The position numbers were made by a program, and so were the translations under genes. A stretch of DNA of 64,000 nt from an uncultured SAR86 cluster bacterium (GTDB lineage Bacteria; Pseudomonadota; Gammaproteobacteria; Magnimaribacterales; D2472): contig CACLMT010000001.1 in NCBI GenBank assembly GCA_902608115.1, forward strand, positions 130,484-194,483, written 5' to 3'. This document shows positions 39,541 to 44,416 of this stretch, piece by piece (position 1 is the first letter of the stretch; each line of letters starts with the position of its first letter). A model generated the notes under the pieces. That model saw only the letters and a list, made by a program, of their open reading frames with translations. It made no database searches and had not been told where the DNA came from.

Positions 39541-39618
39541 GGGTCTGTAGCTCAGCTTGGTTAGAGCGCACCCCTGATAAGGGTGAGGTCGGAAGTTCAA
39601 GTCTTCCCAGACCCACCA
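39541..39618 (+). tRNA. tRNA-Ile (anticodon GAT), CCA encoded
   Basis: A complete cloverleaf: acceptor GGGTCTG/CAGACCC, D-arm from GCTC, anticodon loop CTGATAA (GAT), T-arm with GTTCAAGTC, discriminator A and encoded CCA. 78 bases. It is an isolated gene; in many bacteria this tRNA lies only in the rRNA spacer. Partial copies of its 3' end follow at 40.3 and 44.4 kb, marking it as an integration target. Confidence 0.97.
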
Positions 39619-39942
39619 TTCTCTGTAAGGTGGAAACCTTGATACAAAAGGGATAGAAGCATATTTGGGAAAATACACTAACCCTCAAGGTGTCTAGAAC
39701 CGACACCCTTACGAACCAAATCGTGTTGGCAGAATGTTGGCAGTTTTGATTACAAAAGCAGAACTAGTTAAGGAAATATAAAAGGTCATTCCTGATATTG
39801 ATGCCAAATCTCTTATGCGAAATAATTTACAAAACTTATATTCAATAAAGGCTGTAAAAGTAATAATTATTAAAATCATGAAGTGAGTATGTTATCGCTA
39901 TTTACTGCAGGACTTTACTAGATATAAATAAAGGACTAGAGT
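39619..39942. other. Non-coding stretch after tRNA-Ile: hairpins and a broken short ORF
   Basis: No intact gene. It holds ACCTTGA (39636-39642) complementary to TCAAGGT (39685-39691), overlapping a hairpin GGTGTC / GACACC (39689-39694 and 39702-39707), then two direct TGTTGGCAG repeats around 39724-39742. A 50-codon frame (39734-39886) has a single internal TAA. This is the sort of debris expected beside an integration site. Confidence 0.5.
39734..39886 (+). pseudogene. Possible remnant of a small gene (one in-frame stop)
   Basis: From the ATG at 39734 the frame reads 15 codons (MLAVLITKAELVKEI), a TAA at 39779, then 34 further sense codons (VIPDIDAKSLMRNNLQNLYS... ) to TGA at 39884. The TKAELVKEI...IPDIDAKSL pattern resembles short helix-extended-helix DNA-binding motifs. 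It may simply be chance. Confidence 0.25.
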
Positions 39943-40299
39943 ATGTTAATGAATAAAATAAGATCATTTATCCCTTTTGTTTTTTTAATAATTCTGTTTT
40001 CTTGCTCTCCTTCAGATGATGCTTCCAAAAAAGTTGAGAGAAGGACTGGTGATGAAATGACTTTAAAATGTGGTACTTGGGGGACCTTCTCAGTAAAAGT
40101 AGCTACAAACGAATGCAATTCTATGCAGTGTGTATCTTGGAATGATAAGTCAATAACGATAAAGCAACAGACTTTTGCTGGTAGTACAGTTATCTTAAGG
40201 AAAGACTTAACTTTTTGGGGTTACGGTATGGTTGGCGGAGATAAATTAGAAGGAAAGGGTGTGTGCGAAATAGTCGACACATCAGACAATATTCTTTAA
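39943..40299 (+). CDS. Putative lipoprotein, unknown (island module A)
   Basis: 118 residues. A lipoprotein signal peptide with lipobox ILFSC (Cys about residue 21) follows a basic N-terminus; an alternative start lies two codons in (MNKIRS). The mature part is short, with four further cysteines (LKCGTW, NECNSMQC, GVCEI) that could form two disulfides in the periplasm, and beta-rich sequence. No family recognised. It is the only gene between the intact tRNA-Ile and its 45-bp partial copy. Confidence 0.6.
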   Translation: MLMNKIRSFIPFVFLIILFSCSPSDDASKKVERRTGDEMTLKCGTWGTFSVKVATNECNSMQCVSWNDKSITIKQQTFAGSTVILRKDLTFWGYGMVGGDKLEGKGVCEIVDTSDNIL

Positions 40300-40317
40300 A
40301 AGCATAAAAATAACCCT

Positions 40318-40362
40318 CTGATAAGGGTGAGGTCGGAAGTTCAAGTCTTCCCAGACCCACCA
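40318..40362 (+). repeat. 45-bp exact copy of the tRNA-Ile 3' part
   Basis: Identical to 39574-39618, running from the anticodon loop (CTGATAA) to the encoded CCA. The 5' half of the tRNA is absent. This is the form of an att site left when an element integrates into a tRNA gene and restores its 3' end. Confidence 0.95.
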
Positions 40363-40416
40363 GGTTCTATAATGTTTTTAATTTCTAAATTTCATCCAAA
40401 AGGTTATATTTAAAAT

Positions 40417-41946: not shown

Positions 41947-42864
41947 CTAAGTACTCATAGTCGCGTCTAACATTTTATCTAGAGTAGTTAGATTAACACC
42001 CAATTCTTTGCTAGAAGGCAAAGGATCAATGTCATCGTCATGATCTAACACTCCCAACATGGCCCTAGTTATTGGAGGGTGGGAAAATAGCATTTCAGAT
42101 ATTCTGGCTAATATGTAACCAAGAAAAAGAGGGAGAGAAAGGACTTTTACGTTTGCTCCTAATTGTTTTGCTACCTTCATAATTAGTTTTTCTCGAGTTA
42201 GTGAAGTTGGACCTGCAAGAGCCTTAATTCCACTCGGGGAATGGTTCCCTTTGAGAGTTCTATTTATATCTACGTTTATAACATCAATAATATCTTCAGC
42301 ATAAATGGGTTGTTCTAAACTATGTTTCCTAAAGGTGAAATTAATTCTAGAAAGAGCATTTTGTTTCAAAGCTTTACAAGCATAATCACCCTCTCCAAGC
42401 ACCATTGGGACTTGCAGAATTAGGGAAGGCATATTGGAATCTAAGAAAAGATTTTCAGCCAATCCCCTTGAAGAAAAACAGGTATTTTTAGAGCCCTCAT
42501 TAGCACCTAAAATGCTTATATAACAACATTTTTTGATACCGCTACCCTTGATAGATGCAACAAGTGCTTTTGTGGTTTGTTTGTGAACTAGATCAAACTT
42601 ATTATCTTTATTTTCTTTAATTATGCCAACTAGATGTAACATGTATTTGCATGATCTAGCTAGCTCTTTAATAACTTGCTGATTAAGGTAATCACATTTA
42701 ACTATTTGAACATCTTGAATATCATTAGCTTGCACGAAACTCATCAAATCATCTTTAGCTTTCTCTGATCTTACTAAAGCACAAACTTCCACTTCTCCTT
42801 TGGAGAGTATGAACTTCTTACCTAAATTTCCATTAGCACCTGTTACCAAGATTTTGTCTTTCAT
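41947..42864 (-). CDS. NAD(P)-binding NmrA/SDR-a-type protein
   Basis: 305 residues. The N-terminal ILVTGANGNLGKKFI (about 4-18) is the atypical-SDR nucleotide loop. SVKYMLHLVGI and YISILGANEGSKN follow as in NmrA/YwnB-like proteins that lack the Tyr-x3-Lys pair. Function unknown. Tightly packed with the CDP-alcohol phosphatidyltransferase (4-base gap), so likely in one transcript with it. Confidence 0.8.
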   Translation of the reverse strand: MKDKILVTGANGNLGKKFILSKGEVEVCALVRSEKAKDDLMSFVQANDIQDVQIVKCDYLNQQVIKELARSCKYMLHLVGIIKENKDNKFDLVHKQTTKALVASIKGSGIKKCCYISILGANEGSKNTCFSSRGLAENLFLDSNMPSLILQVPMVLGEGDYACKALKQNALSRINFTFRKHSLEQPIYAEDIIDVINVDINRTLKGNHSPSGIKALAGPTSLTREKLIMKVAKQLGANVKVLSLPLFLGYILARISEMLFSHPPITRAMLGVLDHDDDIDPLPSSKELGVNLTTLDKMLDATMST

Positions 42865-42868
42865 ATTT

Positions 42869-43393
42869 TTATCTATTTAGTAAAGTCCACAATCTTTCGG
42901 ACATGGACACTAAAGTTGAAGCTATCAGAATCCAAGCAAACATAATAAAAAATTTATCAAGCTGATCAATCCCTGCGGCTTGAGAAAAAATACAGACACT
43001 AGCCAAAACATAGTAAGCAATACCATTTGAGCGACCTAAAAAGCTGGTCCTTAACTTATGTCCAGATAGAGCTTTGGAATCTAATACATATTGAAGAAAA
43101 GAACCTAGTACTAATATGGGAAGAAGCAATGGTATTCCGTGAGTTTTGTTTAATACAAATAATAAAACAGCCATCAAAAGAGCATCACAAGAATGATCTA
43201 AGAGTCCTCCGGTCGAAGTTTCTTGGCCTTTCTTTCTGGCAATGGGACCATCCAATAGATCACTTAGGATAGCCAATAATAAAAAAAAACTAGCAGTTAG
43301 CCACCAGTCAGAAAGAATAATCCATGCGATTACTGGTGCAATGAATAATCTAGATAGGCTTAAAGTATTGGCTAAGGTAAAAGAGATCTTCAC
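42869..43393 (-). CDS. CDP-alcohol phosphatidyltransferase family enzyme
   Basis: 174 residues, about five membrane segments. The full family motif D-x2-D-G-x2-A-R-x8-G-x3-D-x3-D is present in SDLLDGPIARKKGQETSTGG continuing to LLDHSCD. Such enzymes join a CDP-activated lipid headgroup to an alcohol. The specific product (PG-phosphate, inositol, other) cannot be read from sequence. It abuts the 324-residue membrane protein upstream and lies inside the tRNA-Ile-bounded region. Confidence 0.88.
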   Translation of the reverse strand: MKISFTLANTLSLSRLFIAPVIAWIILSDWWLTASFFLLLAILSDLLDGPIARKKGQETSTGGLLDHSCDALLMAVLLFVLNKTHGIPLLLPILVLGSFLQYVLDSKALSGHKLRTSFLGRSNGIAYYVLASVCIFSQAAGIDQLDKFFIMFAWILIASTLVSMSERLWTLLNR

Positions 43394-44368
43394 TTAATTT
43401 GATTTATCGCCAAATAATTCTTTATTTGCTCTAGGTAGAAACATTAGACCCACTACTGCATTAAATAAAATAAAAAAATTATGTTGTAAAAAGCCAAAAG
43501 CTGCCATTTGCCCTTCATTTTCAGGAAAAAGAATTATCCAAGAGGTTATAGCCGCGGCTCGCATTGGGGTAGGAACTGTTGCAGCAAAAAATATTACTGG
43601 AAGAAGAGGAAGTAGGGTCATTGAAGATACTTGCACGCCAAAGAAACCCAATGCTGTTGAGTAAACAAATACAGCTGCAATTAACAAAGGTGATCTCAAC
43701 AGGAAAAAAGCTCCGTAATGCTTAAGCTTAGCCAACCTGAAAGCATGAAAAATTTCTAAATTTCTTATTCTGTTGTTCTGAAATAAAGGTCCTCGAAAGA
43801 AAAATACCCAGAGGATAAAAAATATTGCTCCACCAATAGCAATATATTGAACCAGCCCAAATACTTCAGGTAAATCTTGACCTCCAATAGTAAAGCCTAT
43901 GGTAGCCCAAACTAATAAATAAAATATTTCACAAAACATTATGAACAACATTAGTGAAGTAACTTCCCATCCAGGCACCTGATCCCGTCTGTTTAAGTAA
44001 AAGGCCATCGCTCCTTTCCCAATTTGTTCATTAAACATTGAGATAATGTAAGCACTAGCACGGATGGGTAAAATGTCAGTGTATTTAATATCTTTAATAA
44101 ACCAGTTAAGTGCTCTAGTTATGATTAATGTGTCTATGGAAAAATAGAATAGGCAATAGCCAGTCATCATTAATAGCCATGGAATCCAGTTTACTGCTGC
44201 AAAAATAACCAACATGTATTCGATTAAAGTCATGCCTTCTCTTAAGGCAGCTCCATTTAATCGGGTATAAATATAGTAAAAACACGCTATAGCTATCCCA
44301 AATAACAAGATCTTTCCGATCCTATTAGACTTTTTAGGATTTGCTTCTGGACTTTCAGATGTGCTCAA
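43394..44368 (-). CDS. Polytopic membrane protein, unknown
   Basis: 324 residues with about eight hydrophobic segments and cytoplasmic-like basic loops. Position directly before a CDP-alcohol phosphatidyltransferase (one base apart) hints at a lipid-handling role such as a transporter, in the style of UPF0104 proteins; no motif proves it. First gene of the minus-strand lipid-type run. Confidence 0.65.
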   Translation of the reverse strand: MSTSESPEANPKKSNRIGKILLFGIAIACFYYIYTRLNGAALREGMTLIEYMLVIFAAVNWIPWLLMMTGYCLFYFSIDTLIITRALNWFIKDIKYTDILPIRASAYIISMFNEQIGKGAMAFYLNRRDQVPGWEVTSLMLFIMFCEIFYLLVWATIGFTIGGQDLPEVFGLVQYIAIGGAIFFILWVFFFRGPLFQNNRIRNLEIFHAFRLAKLKHYGAFFLLRSPLLIAAVFVYSTALGFFGVQVSSMTLLPLLPVIFFAATVPTPMRAAAITSWIILFPENEGQMAAFGFLQHNFFILFNAVVGLMFLPRANKELFGDKSN

Positions 44369-44389
44369 TTTATTTCTCTAATTAGGGAG

Positions 44390-44416
44390 GTTCAAGTCTT
44401 CCCAGACCCACCATTC
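44390..44416 (+). repeat. 27-bp exact copy of the tRNA-Ile 3' end
   Basis: Identical to 39595-39621, from the T-arm (GTTCAAGTC) through the encoded CCA and three bases beyond. Together with the copy at 40318 it brackets the accessory region. The start differs (T-arm rather than anticodon loop), suggesting more than one event or later trimming. Confidence 0.93.

Follow-up and report, generated by a model that had tools for sequence, protein, structure and literature searches.

Small elements without a recognised integrase behind the tRNA-Ile gene of SAR86 bacteria

The window analyzed here is a stretch of 64,000 nucleotides from contig CACLMT010000001.1 of an uncultured SAR86 cluster bacterium, and this work concerns its tRNA-Ile(GAT) gene together with the DNA between that gene and the gene of an FKBP-type isomerase downstream (Table 1). 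This DNA is divided by copies of the 3' part of the tRNA. Comparison with relatives supports an integration hotspot that the SAR86 order has behind tRNA-Ile, in line with the original prediction, made from the sequence of the window, of serial integration at this gene. ARAGORN and Rfam agree on the predicted intact tRNA, and the exact copy predicted behind it is confirmed by BLAST, with 45/45 bases against tRNA positions 34-78 and 47/48 over 40315-40362. The copy next to the FKBP gene had been given as 27 bp (44390-44416). Only 24 bp of these (44390-44413) are tRNA, and the other three are a TTC that follows the CCA at both places; with one mismatch the match extends over 44386-44413. The decayed copy, placed earlier near 40877-40898, is found at 40861-40895. 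When compared with the tRNA-Ile of a different SAR86 genus it reaches a score of 19 (30/36 columns), against a maximum of 14.5 in 60 shuffles of 4 kb, while the hidden Markov model (HMM) of the tRNA matches it weakly (E-value 0.87). A stretch that resembles it lies at the homologous place in the genome G162. The serial copies behind tRNA-Ile are confirmed, with weaker support for the decayed one. BLAST gave no further matches to the tRNA core in the genome of the window (a 1.25-Mb draft, 78% complete, in 37 contigs, with the region inside a contig of 197 kb), and exact matches to this core elsewhere come mostly from SAR86 records. Within the window there is no copy of the 5' half of tRNA-Ile, nor of the 3' half of tRNA-Ala (52037-52112).

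Table 1 The tRNA-Ile region: features, with positions numbered from the first letter of the window
Feature	Position	Strand	Basis or remark
tRNA-Ile(GAT), integration target	39541-39618	+	ARAGORN and Rfam
45-bp attachment core (tRNA-Ile position 34 to CCA)	39574-39618	+	Comparison of copies
Module 1, 744 bp, adjoins the tRNA and ends with the 45-bp copy	39619-40362	+	
Left-end block	39627-39675	+	Matches DNA right behind tRNA-Ile in G152 and G179, and less of it in G153
Direct repeat TGTTGGCAG-AA-TGTTGGCAG, near the left end	39724-39743	+	Period 11
Small lipoprotein-like gene, 118 aa	39943-40299	+	No family match
45-bp copy, identical to tRNA-Ile from position 34 to CCA	40318-40362	+	
MEM, membrane protein gene	40417-40827	+	92% protein identity to G152
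Decayed tRNA-Ile 3' copy	40861-40895	+	Nearest type that of another SAR86 genus
SB1, deazaflavin-dependent oxidoreductase-like	40931-41335	+	Sub-threshold PF04075
SB2, membrane-anchored protein of no assigned family	41389-41940	+	
NmrA-like NAD(P)-binding protein	41947-42864	-	
CDP-alcohol phosphatidyltransferase	42869-43393	-	
LPG-like multi-pass membrane protein	43394-44368	-	97.5% identical in G147 (another family)
Truncated tRNA-Ile 3' copy	44386-44413	+	
FKBP-type isomerase gene, chromosomal flank	44434-44904	+	

The gene content read earlier from the sequence stands overall. The split-barrel assignment applies only to the first of the two genes so named, SB1, and there below the threshold (20.9 bits against PF04075, for which the Pfam cut-off is 22). 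The lipoprotein-like gene is the sole open reading frame (ORF) of note in module 1. The LPG-like protein takes its name from a very weak match to the transmembrane region of lysylphosphatidylglycerol synthase. The direct repeat near the left end of module 1 might be an arm-type recombinase site, which we offer as a suggestion only.

In the genus of the window, the genes before the tRNA (that of the tyrosyl-tRNA synthetase, TyrRS, and three small genes) and those after the region (FKBP, a small gene and a fatty acid desaturase) are largely conserved, and the DNA between tRNA and FKBP varies in length and content. Variation of the cargo between relatives, as opposed to modules that are alike and identically placed in all of them, had been predicted and is what we find: the cargo of the window is present at the site in none of about 70 loci compared from its own family, and related modules stand beside tRNA-Ile in another family. 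In G034 the FKBP gene begins 16 nt after tRNA-Ile with nothing between; in the window, the last copy of the tRNA ends 20 nt before the FKBP gene. From this we infer that the plain tRNA-FKBP order is ancestral and that the inserts were added between. The empty-site comparison for the window itself consists of this adjacency in G034 alone. Elsewhere in SAR86, three clean pairs of filled and empty sites align across the 45 bp and 600 bp beyond, with identities of 85% for G018/G021 (553/648), 85% for G012/G019 (549/644) and 92% for G088/G037 (594/645). The loci thus present what characterizes a tRNA island, an intact tRNA, then the insert, then a displaced fragment that points the same way as the tRNA, and in three relatives empty sites that join at the repeat. 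Copies preceded by new DNA after the tRNA occur in many independently assembled genomes. Integration at tRNA-Ile, and in several events, is borne out. Decayed tRNA-Ile copies in G064 (L076, 6023-6062) and G084 (L077, 3536-3580) mark two older insertions in the family.

The inserts range from 0.6 to 10.5 kb, and one or more modules with differing cargo stand behind tRNA-Ile in a given genome. In G012, 6.55 kb carry the type I restriction-modification genes HsdR, HsdM and HsdS, and the 10.5 kb of G030 include GmrSD among others. Two elements lie in tandem in G059, an inner one of 5.1 kb with a PstS-like protein, two permeases and an ABC ATPase, and an outer one of 1.27 kb with DoxX and HxlR. G028 and G054 share an element that encodes a TauD/GBBH-like protein and an HD-domain protein, with NCBIfam matches that include TmpA, TmpB and Phn-HD, all below the cut-offs. 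The smallest plan is that of AG-319-O13, a 600-bp element with one lipoprotein-like ORF, which resembles the 744-bp module of the window. A large gene without a Pfam family is found in G018 and G088; the one in G088, the single large gene of its element (L058, 5595-7277, minus strand), has weak similarity to families of phage tail fibre and virion proteins.

The boundaries of the elements are regular. The intact distal copies of relatives span position 34 to CCA, in several genera and two families, and in G030 the match reaches a few bases further to the left. All HMM matches other than complete tRNAs (E < 1e-5) have the orientation of the tRNA and lie downstream of it wherever both are on the stretch. 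The T-arm provides a further marker, as tRNA-Ile occurs in two main types, A (the window, G018, G020 and genus g8) and B (most others). G018 combines an A-type tRNA with a B-type distal copy, which is the pattern that strand exchange with an A-type element between positions 34 and 52, upstream of the T-arm, would predict. In the TyrRS tree the closest relatives of G018, G010 and G001, are of type B, and the well-supported branches force at least three changes of T-arm type.

The original prediction took the differing start points of the copies in the window as a sign of several events, and this argument does not hold. A decayed copy stands at the same place after the LPG-like gene in G147, G150 and G152, and in shorter form in G155. 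In the alignment the window shares its sequence with these genomes to about position 44408 and beyond that alone has the intact CCA end and the FKBP flank. The truncated copy is thus a chimera whose left part comes from the module, as found in family f3, and whose right part is the end of the host tRNA; the truncation was inherited with the LPG-like module. As it belongs to the module, the different starts of the copies do not point to separate events.

Several modules appear to have moved between genera and families. Homologues of the LPG-like protein are present in only five other genomes among 203, all of family f3. In G150, G152 and G162, one contig holds both tRNA-Ile and, downstream of it, related genes; in G155 these follow a 45-bp copy, on a contig stretch without the tRNA, and the contig of G147 carries only the LPG-like gene and the end copy. 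The TyrRS of the window is about 80% identical within its own genus, 62% to that of G147 and 58% to that of G152, far below the identities of the LPG-like protein to G147 and of MEM to G152. Transfer of the module between SAR86 families would be the simplest explanation of this disparity. The nucleotide identity between the window and G152 falls from about 92% to about 78% near the decayed copy. Where the window has module 1, G152 has another segment, with ORFs of 313, 627 and 407 residues, before an equivalent copy and MEM, and different inserts therefore occupy the same junction. Between genera, the element of G028 is 99.8% identical to that of G054 over 2147 bp; identity starts dropping at the copy and averages 89% over the next 1.2 kb. 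The last 111-129 bp, copy included, are common to the elements G012, G059a and G028a at 89-96%, in three genera and with unrelated cargo.

No integrase had been seen in the window, and a search with PF00589 found no on-board tyrosine integrase at the site in the carriers examined either. The strong matches in these genomes, all away from the site, resemble XerC/XerD, and a further, weaker one is present on a separate contig in G030, G059 and G155. XerC/XerD were considered as the recombinase; nothing speaks for or against them, and their genes lie elsewhere. The phosphate element of G059 ends in an open frame of 58 residues that keeps R-x22-H-x8-Y, the spacing of R247, H270 and Y279 in E. coli XerD. 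The tail of this frame is common to G028 and G054. Beyond these two genomes it gave nothing significant in Pfam, PDB, phages, plasmids, viral contigs and 203 SAR86 genomes. We regard the frame as a putative integrase relic.

In IMG/VR the attachment core had no exact match and one pattern for the right ends of the elements had 0 matches. A right-end 19-mer had two, in a phage-like ORF and in what is apparently coding sequence, which we took as chance. The lipoprotein and the LPG-like protein of the window had no matches in viral contigs. No transfer genes are among the annotated cargo, a statement from annotation, as no search was aimed at conjugation genes. In Thermus phage P23-77 (GQ403789.1, 15802-15846), 45 bp without an annotated feature are 89% identical to the attachment core, and this stretch may be a phage attachment site.

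Taken together, insertion with a crossover inside the 3' part of tRNA-Ile, followed by serial accretion, is well supported, and we consider it very probable that this part of the gene is the attachment site for diverse small SAR86 elements that lack an integrase, stack beside the tRNA and are either moved in trans or relics. Strand exchange would take place inside the 45 bp, most likely by a tyrosine recombinase, because this is the only family known to target tRNA genes, with a class that crosses over in the anticodon region (PMC4383910). Each insertion would restore the tRNA with the 3' part borne by the element and displace the old 3' end downstream, where it would mark the far end; renewed insertion at the restored tRNA would stack the modules. 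In the window, a cassette of MEM, SB1, SB2 and the NmrA-like, CDP-alcohol phosphatidyltransferase and LPG-like genes lies between tRNA-Ile and FKBP, with the 744-bp single-gene module in front of it. The elements would have lost an integrase or never had one, and would be moved in trans by an unseen helper or have been frozen as relics after its loss. Action in trans is suggested because integrases are missing and an element without one has recently spread. A tentative and less likely extension of this would be a system of integrase-less cassettes anchored at tRNA-Ile, some as small as one gene, with shared attachment cores and ends, that moves between families by a trans-acting recombinase from an unseen helper such as a phage, satellite or vesicle-borne element and resembles an integron lacking an integrase of its own.

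Some points weigh against this account. Neither a recombinase nor a circular form was found, so the enzyme is one that we infer, and database searches gave no significant match for the putative integrase tail of G059. As the genomes are drafts, a helper at another place in the cell could have escaped notice. Homologous exchange, instead of site-specific recombination, could also have moved two copies of the window, the truncated one at the end and the decayed one in the middle.

A version that is quite possible, if short of probable, is that all of these elements are fixed relics, ordinary integrase-bearing islands or satellites whose integrase was deleted under streamlining and which are no longer site-specifically mobile. 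The several decayed copies, and the tail shared by the G059 phosphate element with G028 and G054, are what such a history would leave, but it is at odds with the near-identity of the G028/G054 element between genera, integrase-less in both, with the shared ends of unrelated cargo in three genera, again with no integrase, and with single-gene elements of 600 and 744 bp. We regard as unlikely that cassettes were swapped by homologous recombination through the tRNA, its copies and the conserved flanks without a dedicated recombinase. Such exchange could account for some moves: the switch in the chimeric end of the window falls inside the T-arm/acceptor part, T-arm types switch several times in the tree, and the identity of G028 and G054 declines gradually, not sharply, past the copy. 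It does not explain how copies that always begin at position 34 first arose, or how new DNA came to be inserted cleanly at empty sites. Chance similarity, slippage or local duplication of the tRNA end, or an assembly artefact, for which nothing of weight speaks beyond the 37-contig draft, is ruled out by an exact 45-bp match, the position inside a long contig and the recurrence of copies with new DNA before them in independent assemblies.

Insertion at the tRNA-Ile 3' part by a recombinase acting in trans or since lost finds its closest parallel, and in our best reading its class, among integrase-less islands similar to cis-mobilizable elements (CIMEs) and tycheposons. Like the CIMEs and accretion arrays of, for example, Streptococcus (PMC7563491), the SAR86 inserts are decayed elements without an integrase between attachment sites at a gene 3' end and form tandem stacks with metabolic and other cargo, which in the CIMEs measures about 1-13 kb; copies on both sides and no PF00589 match at the site are seen in SAR86 too. 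The CIMEs derive from conjugative elements and occur with intact integrative and conjugative or integrative and mobilizable elements (ICEs/IMEs), whereas neither such an element nor a conjugation gene was recognized here; the SAR86 elements stack, but an ICE or IME from which they could derive was not found. In Dehalococcoides, the ssrA islands (PMC3146451) are likewise tandem, strain-variable in cargo and bounded by copies of one RNA gene 3' end, and about half lack an integration module, but they target tmRNA with a 20-bp repeat and many carry a serine recombinase module. Prochlorococcus tycheposons, as described in PMC10872708 and PMC11389934, are similar in their tRNA-anchored cargo, their streamlined marine hosts and their nutrient-acquisition genes; insertion at a tRNA with tRNA fragments and cargo is what SAR86 shows as well. 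Their hallmark is a deep-branching tyrosine recombinase, which was not found at the SAR86 site in the carriers examined; of their seven tRNAs, methionine is among those named in PMC10872708. In fGI-2 of 'Ca. Methylopumilus', another streamlined aquatic bacterium, tRNA 3'-end repeats precede variable insertions from 330 bp, there with 20-bp repeats of tRNA-Lys and a mechanism not worked out (PMC10872708). The islands found by Islander (PMC4383910) share the restored tRNA, the displaced 3' fragment and the class of anticodon-region crossover, but that program demands an on-board integrase and at least 2 kb, filters that the SAR86 elements would fail. Integron cassette arrays and clusters of attC sites lacking integron-integrases (CALIN) use attC-type hairpin sites, whereas the SAR86 repeats are by sequence tRNA 3' ends. 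Elements similar to tycheposons are reportedly present in co-occurring microbes. The kind of element is thus known; no description of the tRNA-Ile variant in SAR86 was found in the literature searched, the coverage of which is incomplete, and the main text of a SAR86 comparison (PMC11582366) does not contain the words tRNA, integrase, mobile or horizontal.

SAR86 are among the most abundant bacteria of the surface ocean and have streamlined genomes. If our account is true, one hotspot would give them a concrete route to gain genes for defence and phosphorus acquisition. Among the cargo exchanged there between SAR86 genera and families would be a type I restriction-modification system, GmrSD, phosphate uptake of the PstSCAB type and an oxygenase pair similar to TmpAB. 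Detectors that need an on-board integrase or 2 kb would miss such elements, and similar systems may therefore be overlooked elsewhere.

Other tRNA genes and neighbors gave minor observations. In G098 (L061, 6405-7219) a tRNA-Met(CAT) is followed 0.7 kb on by an Ile-type 3' copy of 44 bases, and the tRNA-Ile of this genome is of another type than the copy. This is possibly an insertion at a different tRNA; no matching empty site was found in 10 related loci. In G058 three tRNA-Met(CAT) genes follow one another at distances of 1.6-2.5 kb, and the DNA upstream of them is similar (L231, 4632-8990). Just upstream of tRNA-Ile in the window lies a glycosyltransferase/GtrA gene (38309-39397, minus strand), and the members of the genus for which this flank was compared lack it there. 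The window also carries a 6S RNA gene at 8148-8322 on the minus strand (Rfam RF00013, 62.9 bits).

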